A stretch of 64,000 bases of DNA from Coriobacteriales bacterium (GTDB taxonomy: Bacteria; Actinomycetota; Coriobacteriia; Coriobacteriales; UBA8131), in contig JAITDU010000045.1 of assembly GCA_031282405.1 (NCBI GenBank), positions 62,001 to 126,000 of the forward strand, read 5' to 3'. Made by a program: the position numbers and the translations under genes. Below are positions 17,430 through 28,601 of the stretch, one piece after another. A model generated the notes under the pieces. It made no database searches and was not told the origin of the DNA. It worked only from the letters and a program-made list of their open reading frames with translations. The first letter of the stretch is position 1. Each line of letters begins with the position of its first letter.

Positions 17430-18212
17430 TCACTCATCGGTTTCTTTAGTAGTTTTAGCGCTCCTTGCATCAGCATCAGGTGCAGCTTTTTTTGTAGTGG
17501 CCGCGCTTGTTTTGCGTGCCGGTTTTTTGGCCGGGGTTTTTTGCGTAGTATCTTTGTCTGACTTTTTGGGGGTGACTGCCCTGGTAGTACTCGATAGCTG
17601 AGCGCCTGTATCATCAGGTGTTACCTTGGCGGTTCTTGAAGTTCTTGTAGTCTTGGCAGCTGTGGTGGCCTTTTCTACCTTGGTAGATTTTGTTGACTGA
17701 GCGGTTCGCTCTGATGCTGTAGCTTTAGCGTCAGCAGTCGTTTCTTGAGCTTGAGCAGAGCTTTTGACACGTTTGGCCTTGATATCTTCTTCAGTCTTTG
17801 TATTCTTACCGGCAACGGCACTTCTGCTGCGCGCAGCGGTTTTTACCGTCGTGCTATGCTGTTTGAGCTTAGCATCCTTAGAGGGGGCTTTGGGCGGCGT
17901 GCCCTCCGGACTGATAGCGTCTATCGCAAGACGGGTAAGCATTTGACGGTGGCCCTTGAACCGTTTGTAGCCTTTACGTTTCTTGAACTTGAATATCAAC
18001 TGTTTCGTGCCCTTGAATTGCTCGACTATCGTTGCAAACACCTTGGCCGTGGCCAACTGTTCGCGCTCTGTAATGATTGTGCTGCCATCGGCCAAAAAGA
18101 CTACGTCCAGTGCCGTCTGTTCGCCCGGTCCTCCGGACAACTTTTCGACTTCTATCGTGTCGCCCTGCTCGACCTTGTACTGCTTGCCACCTGTAACCAC
18201 TATCGCATACAT
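17430..18212 (-). CDS. rplU: 50S ribosomal protein L21 with a long Lys/Ala/Thr-rich C-terminal tail
   Basis: The start is placed at MYAIVVTGGKQYKV (18212), the family N-terminus, not at 18236. Residues 1-103 or so are a normal L21 with KFKKRKGYKRFKGHRQ. About 155 further residues follow, made almost entirely of Lys, Ala, Thr, Ser, Arg and Asp (for example TTAAKTTRTSRTAK and KKPARKTSAATTKKA), similar to histone-like or AlgP-like basic repeats. Some actinobacterial L21 and other ribosomal proteins bear basic tails, but this one is more than half of the protein. It heads the rplU-rpmA-obg cluster. The tail is probably disordered and may bind RNA (inference). Confidence 0.95.
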   Translation of the reverse strand: MYAIVVTGGKQYKVEQGDTIEVEKLSGGPGEQTALDVVFLADGSTIITEREQLATAKVFATIVEQFKGTKQLIFKFKKRKGYKRFKGHRQMLTRLAIDAISPEGTPPKAPSKDAKLKQHSTTVKTAARSRSAVAGKNTKTEEDIKAKRVKSSAQAQETTADAKATASERTAQSTKSTKVEKATTAAKTTRTSRTAKVTPDDTGAQLSSTTRAVTPKKSDKDTTQKTPAKKPARKTSAATTKKAAPDADARSAKTTKETDE

Positions 18213-18289
18213 CTCGTGCCTCTCGCCTCTCGTCAACTAAGAAAACGCTATGATAACCTACTCGCCCGCTTGCGCGGGTTATATCCGTT

Positions 18290-20347: not shown

Positions 20348-20584
20348 TCAGTTCAGGTATTTCTCACTTAAATAATCGATGATGTCATCGGACTCATAGA
20401 GTGGACGATCACCGATGAACAGGCACGGCACCTGGTTTTTGCCGCCATGCTTTAAGAGATACTCTTTGTTGGCAGGCTCAGTCGTCGAATGCAGATCAAG
20501 CACGATGCTGTTGCTCTCGAGAAAACGCAACACTTTGAGCGAAAACGGGCAGGTCGGCAGGTAATAGAGCTTGAGTTCGTCCAT
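20348..20584 (-). CDS. Small glutaredoxin/GST-N-like thioredoxin-fold protein
   Basis: A 78-residue protein with the thioredoxin-fold pattern LKLYYLPTCPFSLKVLRFLE (active-site CPFS, a monothiol-type CxxS), then NQVPCLFIGDRPLYESDDIIDYL with the cis-proline VPCL and the ESDDI motif seen in glutathione-S-transferase N-terminal domains and glutaredoxins. It covers just the N-terminal fold. The reductant is not evident; it becomes interesting given the gamma-glutamyl ligase pair 3 kb away. ATG follows AGGAACA about 5 bases upstream. Confidence 0.88.
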   Translation of the reverse strand: MDELKLYYLPTCPFSLKVLRFLESNSIVLDLHSTTEPANKEYLLKHGGKNQVPCLFIGDRPLYESDDIIDYLSEKYLN

Positions 20585-22230: not shown

Positions 22231-23514
22231 CTATGCATTAGCGGCGGTCAATAACGCATGGGTCCGATTTACGGCTTCCCATGTGAACTCAGGTAGCTCA
22301 CGGCCAAAGTGACCATACGTCGCAGTCTTCAAAAATATCGGCCTGAGCAAGTCCAGATCTCGAATAATGGCCGCCGGCCTCAAATCGAAGACCTGCTCTA
22401 CGGCTGTGGTTATCTGCCGCTCCTCAACTGTGTTAGTACCCATGCAGTCAACCATCAAAGACAGTGGACGGGCCATGCCGATACCATAGGCAATCTGCAC
22501 TTCTGCGCGCTGAGCCAAACCGCTGGCGACAATATTTTTGGCTATCCAACGGGCAGCATATGATGCTGAGCGGTCGACCTTCGTGCAGTCCTTGCCCGAA
22601 AATGCACCGCCACCGTGGCGGGAATAACCGCCATAGGTATCGGCGATGATCTTGCGTCCGGTTAGTCCCGTATCTGCCGCTGGTCCACCAGCCACGAAAC
22701 GCCCCGTGGGATTGACATACACTTCGGCATCTTGCCAGGGCAGTCCGGATTCATCAAGCACCGGCCGTATTACCTGCCTAATCAGGTCAGTCTTGATGTA
22801 ACGTTCGATATCGGCTCGATCTTCGTGCTGACTGGAGAGGAGCACGGTTTCGACTGCAACAGGACGACCACTGCGGTAGCGCACACCTACTTGAGTTTTG
22901 CCGTCTGGCCTCAGGTAATCCAGGTTGCCGTCCTTGCGTACCTGAGCCAGGCGTTGAGACAGCCGTTGCGCCAGATAAATTGGCACAGGCATCAATGTTG
23001 AGGTCTCCGTGCAGGCAAAGCCAAACATGAGGCCTTGGTCGCCGGCACCGATGCGCTCTAGGGGATCGCTTGTGGCATTGCCATGTTGAACCTCGAAAGA
23101 CTCATCGACCCCTCGGGCAATATCGGGGCTTTGTTCATGGATGGAATTGGTTATACCGATAGAACGATAGTGGAAGCCTGAGTCTGGATCAGTGTAGCCA
23201 ATATCTGCTACGACATCGCGCACAAGCCGGTCGATATCCACGTAGGCCGCAGTGCGAATCTCGCCCGCCAGGAACACCTGACCTTCGGTTACCATGACCT
23301 CGCAGGCCACCCGTGCTTCGCTGACCTCAGTATGCTTGCCTGCAGGAGTCTTGTAGCCACCGAGCATAAGCTCAATCTCCTTGGCAATAATGCTGTCGAG
23401 AATAGCATCGGATATCTGATCGCAGACCTTGTCCGGGTGCCCTTCGGTCACACTCTCGGAAGTGAACACATAATCACCGCGACCTGCGGACGTGTATCTG
23501 TTATCTGCTGGCAT
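22231..23514 (-). CDS. metK: S-adenosylmethionine synthase
   Basis: This enzyme makes SAM from methionine and ATP. The start is MPADNRYTS (23514), preceded by GGGAGAAACG; the 19 residues upstream in the track are not family-like. The 427-residue protein has ESVTEGHPDKVCDQISDAIL, the P-loop-like GAGDQGLMFGFA, and GGGAFSGKDCTKVDRSASY. I looked for a SAM riboswitch in the 120-base leader and saw none. Confidence 0.96.
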   Translation of the reverse strand: MPADNRYTSAGRGDYVFTSESVTEGHPDKVCDQISDAILDSIIAKEIELMLGGYKTPAGKHTEVSEARVACEVMVTEGQVFLAGEIRTAAYVDIDRLVRDVVADIGYTDPDSGFHYRSIGITNSIHEQSPDIARGVDESFEVQHGNATSDPLERIGAGDQGLMFGFACTETSTLMPVPIYLAQRLSQRLAQVRKDGNLDYLRPDGKTQVGVRYRSGRPVAVETVLLSSQHEDRADIERYIKTDLIRQVIRPVLDESGLPWQDAEVYVNPTGRFVAGGPAADTGLTGRKIIADTYGGYSRHGGGAFSGKDCTKVDRSASYAARWIAKNIVASGLAQRAEVQIAYGIGMARPLSLMVDCMGTNTVEERQITTAVEQVFDLRPAAIIRDLDLLRPIFLKTATYGHFGRELPEFTWEAVNRTHALLTAANA

Positions 23515-23633
23515 CGTTTCTCCCTGATTTCTCTGGTTTCTTTGACCTGGGTGCTCATCCCTTGGCAGCACATATTATGCATATATCTTAAAAAGGTGAT
23601 AGGTGCACACAAGCAATACGCTACAATAACAGA

Positions 23634-25142
23634 ATGAACATCTTTTTTGAACAGAACGGGCCGGCCGTCAGTATCACCGGCTTTTTGGATAAGGCCGCCT
23701 ATTCTGAATGCTCCGACTGTCTGGGTTTTGAACTTGAGCATTTCATCGTAACACAGGAAACAGGTCAGCCCGTAGGCTATTTATCCGAAGACACCAAAGA
23801 CGAAGCCTGCGTTGAGCAGATCATGTTGACGCTGGCATCGTCATACGAGCAAAGCATCTACGAACGGGGCAGCGATGGAAAAGATCATTTATTTGGTTTG
23901 ACACGCGGGTATACGGCGCTTTCTCTGGAACCAGGCGCACAGTTAGAGATAAGCATTGGCCCGCTGCGTCGCCTGAGAGAAATAGAACAGGAATATCACC
24001 GCTTCAGATCGGAACTGGACCCTGTTATAGAAGCCCTGGGGCTCAAACTTGCGCTTGTGGGGTATCACCCTACCGCCCAGGCACACAACATCCCGCTCAT
24101 TCCCAAATTGCGTTATCAGTTTATGGACCAACACTTTGCTTCTACCGGTCGCCACGGCATCTGCATGATGCGGGCCACGGCATCCACCCAGGTATCGGTG
24201 GACTACCTCGATCAGGATGATGCCATACAAAAGCTCAGAGTGGCTACGGCACTCGGCCCGCTGCTCGCCTTTCTTACCGACAACTCGCCAGTGTTTGAAT
24301 CGGCGCAAATAGGAGCTCTGGGGGCTTCTCTCCCAACTGACAGGACGGTAGATAGCGCTACAGATGAGATTACCGGCGCTGCGACTGTGACAAACAACGC
24401 AAGGGTGACTTCTCTTAATCGTTCAATTGATAAGACGAACAGCGAGTTGGTAACTCCCAGCGGTCTGGCGCTACCAAATAGAATGGCCCGCATGGCCTGT
24501 TGGGATGACACCGACCCCGATAGAAGCCTTGTGCCTCCGGGCCTATTCGATGATGACTTTGACTTTTACCACTATGCCCAAGGCTTGCTCAGAGCACCGG
24601 CTATATTCACACCTGCCGGTCAGACTGCCACTGCGGCAGCAGCACAGATGCTTGATTCAGAAAAACCGCTGGAATATACCGGCTTTCGCAGCTTTAATGA
24701 ACTTCTTTCTTCAGAGGCCCTTGACGACGCAGCTATCTTGCATATCTTGTCGATGTTTTTCTATGATGCCCGCTTTAAATCCTATGTAGAAATCCGCCAA
24801 GCCGACGCTCTGCCTTTTGAGTATGCGTTGGCTTACACGGCGTTGATCAAAGGAGTGTTTTATAACCCGGCCGCCGTTGAGTATTACTCGACACGGTTTA
24901 CGTTCATGGATGCCACTCAGGTGGCCTTTGCCAAGACCGCACTGCGCAAGAGCGGCTACGATGCGCTTGTCTATCGACGAGCGGTCCACGAATGGCTTGA
25001 CGAACTCTTGGAGTTCGCGCGGGCGGGCCTACCCAAAGGCGAGCTGGAGTATCTTGCGCCCTTGGCACAGCTGATCGAGACCAGACGGACAGTTTTGGAT
25101 TTACACTACGAAAAGTGCCCTTTTGCCCCTCACGCAAGGTGA
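23634..25142 (+). CDS. Glutamate-cysteine ligase family (GCS2-like) enzyme
   Basis: A 502-residue ATP-dependent gamma-glutamyl ligase. LGFELEHFIV (about residues 30-40) matches the glutamate-binding start of the family, EPGAQLEISIGP (about 99-110) is the metal/ATP loop, and HGICMMRATASTQVSVDY (about 182-200) matches the R-x-x-STQVN-like segment of plant-type and EgtA-type enzymes. Residues about 225-280 are a Thr/Ala/Asn-rich insert. The expected product is gamma-Glu-Cys or another gamma-glutamyl amide. A 9-base gap joins it to the ATP-grasp gene, so the two should act in sequence. It is divergent from metK, which may be relevant to sulfur metabolism. Confidence 0.85.
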   Translation: MNIFFEQNGPAVSITGFLDKAAYSECSDCLGFELEHFIVTQETGQPVGYLSEDTKDEACVEQIMLTLASSYEQSIYERGSDGKDHLFGLTRGYTALSLEPGAQLEISIGPLRRLREIEQEYHRFRSELDPVIEALGLKLALVGYHPTAQAHNIPLIPKLRYQFMDQHFASTGRHGICMMRATASTQVSVDYLDQDDAIQKLRVATALGPLLAFLTDNSPVFESAQIGALGASLPTDRTVDSATDEITGAATVTNNARVTSLNRSIDKTNSELVTPSGLALPNRMARMACWDDTDPDRSLVPPGLFDDDFDFYHYAQGLLRAPAIFTPAGQTATAAAAQMLDSEKPLEYTGFRSFNELLSSEALDDAAILHILSMFFYDARFKSYVEIRQADALPFEYALAYTALIKGVFYNPAAVEYYSTRFTFMDATQVAFAKTALRKSGYDALVYRRAVHEWLDELLEFARAGLPKGELEYLAPLAQLIETRRTVLDLHYEKCPFAPHAR

Positions 25143-25151
25143 TAGCGACGA

Positions 25152-26942
25152 ATGATGCGACACAAGCAACACCAACAAGATAACGGGGGAGAAAAGCCGG
25201 ACGACCCTGTCTTTGACAGTGCCGGTCATACGTATCACGCACATTTTTCCTCCTCTCGAATAGACGCGCTGCAACGGGCTTATCGCGAGGTCTTTTCGTC
25301 ACTAAAGGGTGATGTGACTGGGCGGATTACTGCGGCGACGTATCTCAATACCTCCAGCGCCTTTTATCACGATCGCGTCATTGGCATGGGCTTTCTCCCT
25401 AAACTCTATGATGAAGCTGCACTTAGCTATTTTGATACTATAGTAGCAACAACCTACCGTATTCTGGATAAGATAACCCAGCACTACCTTCGAGACGACG
25501 AGTATCGACGACTATTCAGATTCTCGCCGTTGTTGGAGTCGTTGATTTGCCTGCCCAGCAGTTACGCTGCTACGATACCGATCGCCCGGTTCGATATCTT
25601 TTTGGATGAACAGAGCGGCGATTTCATGTTCTGTGAATTCAATACCGATGGTTCCAGTGCTATGAATGAAGATCGCGAAGTCTGTAATGCTCTTGCAACC
25701 ACACCGAGCCTTGCCAACTTCTCGGCTACGCACCGGGTTTGTGCTCAGGAACTGTTCGACAACTGGATCGACGCTTTTTTACGCATATACGAGAGCTCAA
25801 GCGCCGCTCGTCCCAACCCGACCGTAGCCATAGTTGATTATCGTCGTAGCGCCACTATGACCGAGCATCGGGAGTTTTGCAGGCGTTTTATGGCTCGCGG
25901 CGTTAATTGTCTCATCGCCGATATAGCAGACCTGGCCTTTATTGATGGCGCGCTGTACGCCACTAACACCGAGCCGGATACTCGCGATTTTGACCCTGCA
26001 GATAAGGATGTTGCGTCTCGTCACCTTGAATCCAGACAGCCCATACGAGTGGACGCTATCTACCGGCGAGCGGTAACACACGAAATCGTTGCGGAACTGG
26101 AACAGGAACTGGAGCAAGAGTCGCAGCCTACCGGCCAGGCGCGCCGCCAAATTTTTGAGCGACTTTTAAGTGGTAATTCAGTGTGCTCAGATCCAAGCGA
26201 TTGTACAGGAGCTCGCGCCTTGCTTGTGGCGGTCGCTACAGGAAGCGTCTGTATGCTGGGCGACTTTAAGACTCAGGTCGCCCATTCCAAAGCGGTTTTC
26301 GTTGTGCTGCATCTGCCTGAGACCCAGGCTATCCTGAGCGCCTCAGAGCGTGATTTTATCCGTCGGCACGTGCCCTACACTACCTGGTTAGATGCCGACA
26401 GCATTGATCTGAACGCGGCCAAAGCGAATAAGGATCGCTGGATTATCAAGCCGGTGGATGGCTATGCCACCATGGGGGTATTTGCAGGAAGGGGGCTTGG
26501 TGCTGAGGAGTGGGAGCGACTCATAGATGAACACAGTAACGATGGCTATGTCATTCAAGAATACTGTCAGCAATATGCGACGCTTAACACACTGCCCCTA
26601 CCTCTGGATTCTCAGGGCCAGCCGATGTTCTCTCGTCCCAACGACATTCAAAGGGCCGTCAGGGCCGGACGCTTTGATGCCCAACACCTTGAGCCGTATC
26701 ATACGCTTACCGGACTGTTTAGTTACGATGGCCGTTTTTCCGGAGTCTATGTTCGTGCCGGCCAAGATGCCCTGATTGTCGGTTTTCGCGGCGGCATTAC
26801 TCTGGGCTCATTACTTTGCGATGTCTCTGAATTCTGTGATTTGGCGATAGTCCCTCGGCATCTCGATGTTGCTTCGTCTCGACTTTATGAGTGTCGCAAC
26901 GATTATCTGCCGCCTGCGTCGGACGCATCTGAATTAAAATAG
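25152..26942 (+). CDS. ATP-grasp ligase resembling the glutathionylspermidine-synthase family
   Basis: A 596-residue protein. FMFCEFNTDGSSAMNEDRE (about residues 158-176) resembles the E-x-N-x-D-T/G metal/ATP motif of glutathionylspermidine-synthase-like ATP-grasp enzymes. DRWIIKPVDGYATMGVF (about 428-444) supplies the nucleotide-binding lysine and flexible loop, and a C-terminal LFSYDGRFSGVYVRAGQ...GGITLG segment completes the fold. It is not a normal GshB. As the partner of the GCS-like enzyme it probably joins the gamma-glutamyl dipeptide carboxylate to an amine, giving glutathione or a related peptide or amide; the acceptor cannot be told from sequence. A Glu/Gln/Arg-rich linker lies near residues 315-340. 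Confidence 0.7.
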   Translation: MMRHKQHQQDNGGEKPDDPVFDSAGHTYHAHFSSSRIDALQRAYREVFSSLKGDVTGRITAATYLNTSSAFYHDRVIGMGFLPKLYDEAALSYFDTIVATTYRILDKITQHYLRDDEYRRLFRFSPLLESLICLPSSYAATIPIARFDIFLDEQSGDFMFCEFNTDGSSAMNEDREVCNALATTPSLANFSATHRVCAQELFDNWIDAFLRIYESSSAARPNPTVAIVDYRRSATMTEHREFCRRFMARGVNCLIADIADLAFIDGALYATNTEPDTRDFDPADKDVASRHLESRQPIRVDAIYRRAVTHEIVAELEQELEQESQPTGQARRQIFERLLSGNSVCSDPSDCTGARALLVAVATGSVCMLGDFKTQVAHSKAVFVVLHLPETQAILSASERDFIRRHVPYTTWLDADSIDLNAAKANKDRWIIKPVDGYATMGVFAGRGLGAEEWERLIDEHSNDGYVIQEYCQQYATLNTLPLPLDSQGQPMFSRPNDIQRAVRAGRFDAQHLEPYHTLTGLFSYDGRFSGVYVRAGQDALIVGFRGGITLGSLLCDVSEFCDLAIVPRHLDVASSRLYECRNDYLPPASDASELK

Positions 26943-27032: not shown

Positions 27033-28601
27033 ATGGACGACACTCCCGTCAGGGTGCGCTTTGCGCCCTCGCCCACCGGATATTTGCATATCGGTGGTGC
27101 CAGGACAGCTATCTATAATTGGGCGTATGCCAAAAATCAGGGCGGCAGCTTTATTTTGCGCATTGAGGATACCGACCGTCAAAGATCTTTGCCGGAACAC
27201 ACTGCGCAGATACTGCGCTCGTTGCGCTGGTTGGGCTTGGATTGGGATGAAGGACCCGACGTAGGCGGTGCCTTTGGACCATATCTGCAATCCCAACAAC
27301 GCTTAGTCTACGACCAGGCTTTGACAAAATTGCGCCAAAACGACAGTGTCTACCCCTGCTTTTGTACGTCCGCAGAGCTAAAGGCCAAACGGGAGGCTGC
27401 ATTGGCGGCTCGGACTTACACTGGCTACGACCGCACCTGTCGTTTTGTCGACGCGGACGAGGCCGCCCGGCGGATAGCCGCGGGCGAGGCACATACCTGG
27501 CGCATTAAGCTGCCTTTGGATCGTGACGCTGTAGCCTTTGACGATCTGGTATTTGGTCATATCAAGGTTGGTCTTGAGCAACTAGATGATTTTATCTTGG
27601 TACGGGCAGACGGCTCACCCACCTATAACTTTGCTGTGAGTGTGGATGATTCCCATATGCGCATCAGCCACGTCATTCGTGGCGATGATCATCTGAGCAA
27701 CACCCCCAAACAGATACTCGTTTTTGAAGCGCTGGAAAGCAAGGTGCCTGCCTTTGCACATCTATCGATGATCTTGGGCAACGATGGTAAGCGGCTTTCG
27801 AAACGTCACGGTGCCACCTCACTTGAGTTCTATCGAGACACGGGCGTACTACCCGAGGCACTGCTGAACTATCTGGCACTTTTGGGTTGGTCGTTAGATG
27901 GACAGACTACCTTATTTGACGCTGAGTGTCTGAAAAGCGCATTTTCGTTGCAACGGGTATCAAAAAACCCGGCGATATTCGATACAGAAAAGTTATTATG
28001 GGTGAACCAGGCTTATCTCAAAAGACTGAGTCCGCAAGCTTTTCTCGATGTCTGGCAACCCTATCTGCTGGAGGCTGGATTGCTGCGCGGCAAGACCTCG
28101 GTGGCCCAGGCCTTAGCGTTGCACAATAACGCAGAGGAGAGCGCTGTCTGTCCGGCATCCAAGCCGATCCAGGAGGCTGTCCAAGCTGACATCGAGGCCA
28201 ACCGTGAATGGTATCTGCAGATACCACCACTGGTTGTCGAACGCGTCAAGCTGCTGGCCGAAGTCAATGGCATCTGTGCCTATCTGTTTTGCGGCGACGA
28301 GGTGCCCTTCGACGAGCGCTCGATTCAAAAATGTTTGAAGCCAGAGGGGACGACTCAGTTGTTGAATGCTGCGATAGACTGTCTTGATACGGCTGAAGTG
28401 CCTTGGCGACTTGAAGCTATCGAACAGGCATTACGCCACCTGCCACAAACCCTGGACGTTAAACCTAAACTGTTGTTCCAGGCGATACGGGTAGCTCTCT
28501 GTGGCACTATGATCTCCCCTCCCCTGTTTGAATCGCTTATCTTGGTGGGTCGAGAGTTCACCTTGAACCGTCTGCGGCGCGCAGCAGCGATTGCAGGTTA
28601 A
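27033..28601 (+). CDS. gltX: Glutamyl-tRNA synthetase
   Basis: A class I aminoacyl-tRNA synthetase of 522 residues. RFAPSPTGYLHIGGARTAIYN contains the HIGH-type motif (HIGG, about residue 18), and KRLSKRHGATS (about residue 251) is the KMSKS equivalent. GDDHLSNTPKQI is also characteristic. The gene starts 90 bases after the ATP-grasp gene with GGAG nearby; co-transcription is possible. Whether it is discriminating depends on gatCAB elsewhere. Confidence 0.96.
   Translation: MDDTPVRVRFAPSPTGYLHIGGARTAIYNWAYAKNQGGSFILRIEDTDRQRSLPEHTAQILRSLRWLGLDWDEGPDVGGAFGPYLQSQQRLVYDQALTKLRQNDSVYPCFCTSAELKAKREAALAARTYTGYDRTCRFVDADEAARRIAAGEAHTWRIKLPLDRDAVAFDDLVFGHIKVGLEQLDDFILVRADGSPTYNFAVSVDDSHMRISHVIRGDDHLSNTPKQILVFEALESKVPAFAHLSMILGNDGKRLSKRHGATSLEFYRDTGVLPEALLNYLALLGWSLDGQTTLFDAECLKSAFSLQRVSKNPAIFDTEKLLWVNQAYLKRLSPQAFLDVWQPYLLEAGLLRGKTSVAQALALHNNAEESAVCPASKPIQEAVQADIEANREWYLQIPPLVVERVKLLAEVNGICAYLFCGDEVPFDERSIQKCLKPEGTTQLLNAAIDCLDTAEVPWRLEAIEQALRHLPQTLDVKPKLLFQAIRVALCGTMISPPLFESLILVGREFTLNRLRRAAAIAG

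Follow-up and report, generated by a model that had tools for sequence, protein, structure and literature searches.

What product does an anaerobic coriobacterium obtain from a GCS2-family ligase gene that stands directly in front of an atypical ATP-grasp gene? The two open reading frames (ORFs) lie in a 64,000-nucleotide stretch of DNA from a Coriobacteriales bacterium, referred to here as the window. A reading of the sequence alone had suggested that the encoded enzymes make gamma-Glu-X and then couple it to a second amine. According to reviews, mycothiol is the thiol of actinomycetes and bacillithiol that of many Firmicutes, and glutathione is not made by most Gram-positive bacteria (PMC4360819).

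The gene pair and its surroundings

Both ORFs of the pair are intact and encoded on the same strand, with 9 bases between the stop codon of the first and the start codon of the second. The order, spacing, coordinates, and frames given in the sequence-only reading were verified (Table 1), and the two ATP-grasp motifs that it had quoted, CEFNTDGSSAMNED and WIIKPVDG, are present in the second ORF.

Table 1. Features of the window that are referred to in the text
Feature	Position	Strand	Length or basis	Remark
Ribosomal protein L21-like ORF	17430-18236	-	by eye	low-complexity Lys/Ala/Thr-rich C-terminal tail of ~150 residues
Mini-glutaredoxin, CPFS motif	20348-20584	-		
metK-like S-adenosylmethionine synthetase	22231-23571	-	by eye from sequence	divergent, upstream of the pair
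GCS2-family glutamate-cysteine ligase gene	23634-25142	+	502 aa	proposed first step
Circularly permuted ATP-grasp ligase gene	25152-26942	+	596 aa	proposed second-step ligase
gltX-like glutamyl-tRNA synthetase	27033-28601	+	by eye from sequence	downstream of the ATP-grasp gene

A scan of the genome collection with the ATP-grasp profile yielded 555 relatives, 80 of which were kept for locus comparison. In many Coriobacteriales loci (L062, L071, L072, and L079 among them), the ATP-grasp gene has a homologue of the gltX-like gene next to it; this conserved neighbor is probably a matter of synteny rather than a pathway component. A metK-like homologue occurs near the pair in L061, L062, and L063 and in 25 of the 80 loci; it is an upstream neighbor within the window's own family and serves as context only. 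The mini-glutaredoxin that had been pointed out near the pair is a real gene, but it is located 3 kb away on the opposite strand and tracks the pair weakly. It was found in 180 of 300 Coriobacteriia genomes (77% of genomes with the pair versus 51% of those without). We rejected it as a sign of glutathione use, for it is unspecific and common without the pair too.

The first enzyme is a plant-type glutamate-cysteine ligase by profile and model

The 502-aa ORF matched the GCS2 family (PF04107) with an E value of 2.5e-23. Its best curated model was TIGR01436, which describes the plant/proteobacterial glutamate-cysteine ligase (GCL; E = 5.9e-41). Since its score of 140 bits falls below the equivalog cut-off of 463 bits, the protein is considered a relative rather than an equivalog of that model. 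The GCS2 profile (A4) aligned with plant GCL (6gmo/2gwc) over its full length (10 to 415 of 419 positions), with an E value of 6e-76. When the AlphaFold model of the protein (pLDDT 88.8) was searched with Foldseek, plant GCL 2gwc was closest (E = 1.8e-29; TM-score for the target, 0.85 to 0.86), followed by YbdK (3e-12) and E. coli GshA (7e-7). By profile and model, the first enzyme is a plant-type GCL, clearly above YbdK or GshA. It has the GCS2 fold and the E-x-E, LEPG-Q-E, PK-x-RY, and E-x-R-x-A-D motifs in common with Brassica juncea GCL (2gwc), although the structural alignment shows 22% identity. A disordered insert at residues ~230 to 270 is missing from most relatives.

In some relatives, the GCS2 protein carries a C-terminal Peptidase_C26 domain. 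This fusion was suspected in eight long GCS2 proteins and confirmed in three of the four that were examined, all from Eggerthellaceae-like bacteria (loci L034, L036, and L046; E = 6e-57 to 4e-63); no such domain was found in the long protein of L057. Peptidase_C26 is the family of the gamma-Glu-GABA hydrolase PuuD, a gamma-glutamyl hydrolase. The domain content of these chains suggests that a gamma-glutamyl compound is both made and broken down under control, which would be compatible with thiol turnover. A different domain, of ~90 aa and unknown function, was observed upstream of GCS2 or fused to its N terminus in Anaerofustis and a Eubacteriaceae bacterium (L119, 79-1605; L115, 6338-6658; L148, 6379-6657).

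The two genes are adjacent, and sometimes fused, across two phyla

A GCS2 gene is present in 46 of the 80 ATP-grasp loci, adjacent in 45 and 3 kb off in one. The start and stop of the adjacent genes lie within about 111 nt of each other in 41 cases, and the other four are single-ORF fusions (L093, L102, L123, and L134). A fifth fusion was identified in genome G275, where both matches fall inside one 851-aa frame. Bacillota account for 20 of the 45 adjacent loci. The pair is also adjacent in the window's own family (G261 and G293) and in a family from another order of Coriobacteriia (f9), and adjacency spans dozens of Coriobacteriia and Clostridia. Chance adjacency is ruled out by the fusions and by this recurrence. 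The pairing that had been noticed in a single anaerobe therefore holds, but it is not peculiar to that organism, being widespread in Coriobacteriia and Clostridia.

Protein distances of the two enzymes co-vary, with a Mantel r of 0.83 overall, 0.89 in Bacillota, and 0.86 in Coriobacteriia, part of which would be expected from shared descent alone. On plasmid pSRC2 of Selenomonas ruminantium TAM6421, a GCL gene, a MATE-family efflux gene, and the ATP-grasp gene, annotated as a hypothetical protein, form an apparent operon (L178, 2867-7209). This plasmid-borne, split pair suggests that the genes were transferred laterally and, possibly, that their product is exported.

A classical glutamate-cysteine ligase often stands in for a missing GCS2

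Co-occurrence across Coriobacteriia, a check suggested together with the original proposal, is pronounced. The ATP-grasp gene was found in 147 of 300 genomes, GCS2 in 116, and both in 103, giving an odds ratio of 25 (P = 4e-30) from raw counts that ignore shared ancestry. GCS2 occurs without ATP-grasp in 13 genomes. Type-1 GshA (PF04262) is present in 14 of the 300 genomes. Nine of these proteins are standalone, and all nine belong to Eggerthellaceae-like genomes in which the ATP-grasp gene is present and GCS2 is absent. The remaining five genomes lack both GCS2 and ATP-grasp, and their frames are mostly of GshF length (720 to 780 aa). Within the Eggerthellaceae-like family, exactly one GCL accompanies the ATP-grasp gene in 76 of 77 genomes (67 GCS2 and nine type-1). 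Likewise, all eight Bacillota with ATP-grasp and without GCS2 match PF04262, two of them only as short fragmentary frames. Both the co-occurrence and the swap thus recur in two phyla. Because type-1 GshA takes the place of GCS2, the shared intermediate is most readily explained as gamma-Glu-Cys, on which the ATP-grasp enzyme would act; this is the strongest single argument for both points. Neither GCL class was found in 35 of the 147 Coriobacteriia genomes with ATP-grasp; these organisms may import gamma-Glu-Cys or rely on an enzyme that has diverged.

Strong matches to GshB were detected in 24 of the 300 Coriobacteriia genomes and never together with GCS2 or ATP-grasp. In 21 pair-bearing genomes, searches returned no GshB over the cut-off, no EgtD (PF10017), and no MshC over the cut-off. 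Matches to MshC below the threshold appeared in every control genome, as expected because of cysteinyl-tRNA synthetase. A mycothiol pathway was rejected on the absence of this marker. A GshB elsewhere in the window's genome was likewise rejected as the second-step enzyme, none being found in an assembly that is 88% complete, and PF04262, searched in G000 as a test for GshF, gave no match. Since EgtD and GshB were not found, ergothioneine does not account for gamma-Glu-Cys, and there is no other recognised glutathione synthase.

The second enzyme belongs to no curated family

The only curated match of the 596-aa ORF is CP_ATPgrasp_2 (PF14403), at 25.1 bits against a cut-off of 32, so that this circularly permuted ATP-grasp protein falls in no curated family. 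A single-sequence search of the PDB with the ORF gave no match, and the GshB models (GSH-S_ATP, PF02955, and TIGR01380) were not matched over their cut-offs; weak GshB matches were seen only in some relatives. GSP_synth (PF03738) matched weakly as well: only 6 of 55 relatives reached E <= 0.1. The distant fused relative L102 exceeds the cut-offs of both PF14403 and PF04174.

In Foldseek searches with the AlphaFold model (pLDDT 88.5), 3n6x, Cp1B, E. coli GspS, YgiC, and the human, yeast, and plant glutathione synthetases (GSS) came out at about the same distance. 3n6x, one of the top matches, is annotated as a putative GspS. The predicted fold thus groups with GSS, GspS, and YgiC, and since the model is about equally near to GSS and GspS, fold alone does not choose between these two. 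The original suggestion, that this protein is not GshB and resembles GspS-type enzymes, agrees with these neighbors and with the missing GshB match. At the sequence level, resemblance to any characterised ligase is very weak: identity to GSS is ~12%, and GSS was not among the matches of the ATP-grasp profile. Direct alignment with hhalign gave an E value of 3e-5 for human GSS (probability 73%, partial coverage) and a weaker one of 0.011 for E. coli GspS, which was represented by a single sequence.

According to a paper on trypanosome GSS (PMC2845819), Arg267, Ser151, Glu214, and Asn216 of the human enzyme contact the gamma-Glu moiety, Arg125 and Ser149 the Cys residue, and Arg450 the Gly carboxylate; Mg is bound by conserved acidic residues. 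The hhalign alignment places R306 of the window protein at R267, where the GspS alignment has a residue other than Arg. By motif, R146-x-D148 corresponds to Arg125-x-Asp of GSS, with its Mg-binding Asp; E162-x-N164 corresponds to the metal motif, with E162 as the Mg-binding Glu; and R535 corresponds to R450. Residues R146, D148, E162, N164, R306, K433, and R535 are invariant among 55 relatives, and S169, the counterpart of Ser151, is kept in 53 of them. As modeled, the protein would combine the features of a GSS-type enzyme (circularly permuted ATP-grasp fold, predicted gamma-Glu-Cys-binding Arg, and Mg ligands), but the GGVAAG A-loop, which binds glycine in eukaryotic GSS, was not recognisable in the ATP-grasp alignment (A1), nor was full-length sequence similarity detectable.

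Some genomes hold more than one copy of the ATP-grasp gene. It is tandemly duplicated in one Eggerthellaceae-like genome (G103; L075, 981-3909), and two copies are present in several others of this group. Loci of family f2 (L078, L080, and similar) contain divergent copies with GSAGM replacing GSSxMNE; searches of the host genomes yielded no glutamate-cysteine ligase.

Proposed pathway and alternatives

We consider it very likely that the pair encodes a conserved two-step pathway to gamma-Glu-Cys-X. The GCS2 enzyme would use ATP to join the gamma-carboxyl group of Glu to Cys; formation of gamma-Glu-Cys by this enzyme is suggested by its replacement with type-1 GshA. The ATP-grasp enzyme would then phosphorylate the Cys carboxylate of gamma-Glu-Cys and couple the activated intermediate to another amine, glycine being the most likely one. 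Given the GCL swap, the single GCL in 76 of 77 Eggerthellaceae-like genomes with ATP-grasp, and the exclusion of GshB and GshF, the first step probably yields gamma-Glu-Cys, and the ATP-grasp protein is the likely second-step ligase. The general scheme of the sequence-only reading is supported by the same observations together with adjacency across phyla, fusions, and co-occurrence, and its X is very probably cysteine. The elements of this proposal obtained by computation are the identities of the genes, their conserved pairing and fusions, the first-enzyme swap, the absence of GshB, the fold, and the active-site residues. They point strongly to cysteine as the first acceptor and moderately to glycine as the second, and we infer that the product would act as a cytosolic thiol in anaerobes. 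Overall, we favor, with some reserve, a glutathione operon in which X is glycine and the synthetase is non-orthologous to GshB, GshF, and eukaryotic GSS. No glutathione-specific consumer enzyme was found to track the pair, the mini-glutaredoxin doing so weakly.

The choice of glycine has one serious competitor. The second acceptor could be another amino acid, an amine, or a polyamine, in which case gut Coriobacteriia and Clostridia would share an undescribed gamma-Glu-Cys-X thiol, analogous to homoglutathione and made by GCS2 or type-1 GshA with the new class of ATP-grasp enzyme. We regard this as rather unlikely. The model is as near to GspS and YgiC, which have polyamine acceptors, as it is to GSS; the E-x-N-x-D motif is GspS-like; and the glycine loop of GSS is unrecognisable. 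Weighing against this, invariant R535 occupies the glycine-carboxylate site of GSS, although GspS and YgiC also have Arg there, and glycine is the commonest choice among known two-step pathways.

A route without a thiol appears improbable. Here, GCS2 would act like YbdK and make a gamma-Glu-amine or gamma-Glu-amino acid, which the ATP-grasp enzyme would extend, and the resulting gamma-glutamyl peptide or amide would be stored or exported. Such a role would fit the promiscuity that members of the GCS2 superfamily can show, the fusion of some GCS2 proteins to a domain of the PuuD-like hydrolase family, and the MATE exporter gene within the Selenomonas operon. However, type-1 GshA, of the classical Glu-Cys ligase family, replaces GCS2 as the partner of the same ATP-grasp enzyme, and plant GCL is a far better match to the GCS2 model than YbdK is.

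It is more doubtful still that the ATP-grasp protein is a glutathionylspermidine/trypanothione-type synthetase amidating imported glutathione while GCS2 acts separately. GspS and 3n6x are among the top structural matches, and a few family members weakly match GSP_synth, but GspS requires glutathione, and these genomes lack GshB. The family is, moreover, bound to a GCL through operon, fusion, and swap, and its hhalign match to E. coli GspS is the weaker one, albeit to a single sequence. Finally, the idea that GCS2 is EgtA supplying ergothioneine synthesis next to an unrelated ATP-grasp gene is largely refuted: the protein does match the EgtA model TIGR03444, but at 80 bits against a cut-off of 371 and against 140 for plant-type GCL, EgtD-family methyltransferases are missing from all 21 pair-bearing genomes, and fusions and the swap link GCL to ATP-grasp.

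If the proposal is correct, about one-third of the Coriobacteriia genomes sampled, together with many Clostridia, would possess a complete gamma-Glu-Cys-X pathway. Evolution would then have solved glutathione-type synthesis in one more way, through a second enzyme that is unnamed in curated databases. Predictions of thiol production and consumption among gut anaerobes would change, with a bearing on oxygen tolerance and on electrophile and drug metabolism in, e.g., Gordonibacter and Slackia. No description of such a pathway was found in the open-access literature; an earlier description outside it is possible.

Comparison with known systems

GshF of Listeria, Streptococcus, and Pasteurella makes glutathione with GshA and a non-GshB ATP-grasp domain in one chain (PMC10295655). 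The pair described here similarly combines a GCL with an ATP-grasp enzyme other than GshB. In GshF, however, a type-1 GCL is joined to a D-Ala-D-Ala-ligase-like ATP-grasp domain, whereas here GCS2 is joined to a circularly permuted one, mostly as two genes, and the second domain is not common to both. GshF-length frames in Coriobacteriia never co-occur with the pair. Plant GCL differs from the first enzyme in that the latter is partnered with the new ATP-grasp protein and, in some relatives, with a Peptidase_C26 domain.

Eukaryotic GSS (human, yeast, and plant, including homoglutathione synthetase) resembles the second enzyme in its circularly permuted fold, aligned substrate-binding Arg, Mg ligands, and predicted reaction. 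The second enzyme is set apart by its low identity and unrecognisable A-loop, its bacterial origin, and its operon with a GCL. The substrates of E. coli GspS (glutathionylspermidine synthetase) and YgiC (peptide-spermidine ligase) are finished peptides and polyamines. Both enzymes share with the window protein the circularly permuted ATP-grasp fold, the E-x-N-x-D metal motif, and an Arg near the C terminus. Linkage to a GCL, in contrast, is no part of their definition, and the counterpart of GSS R267, which is not Arg in the GspS alignment, is invariant in the window's ATP-grasp family.
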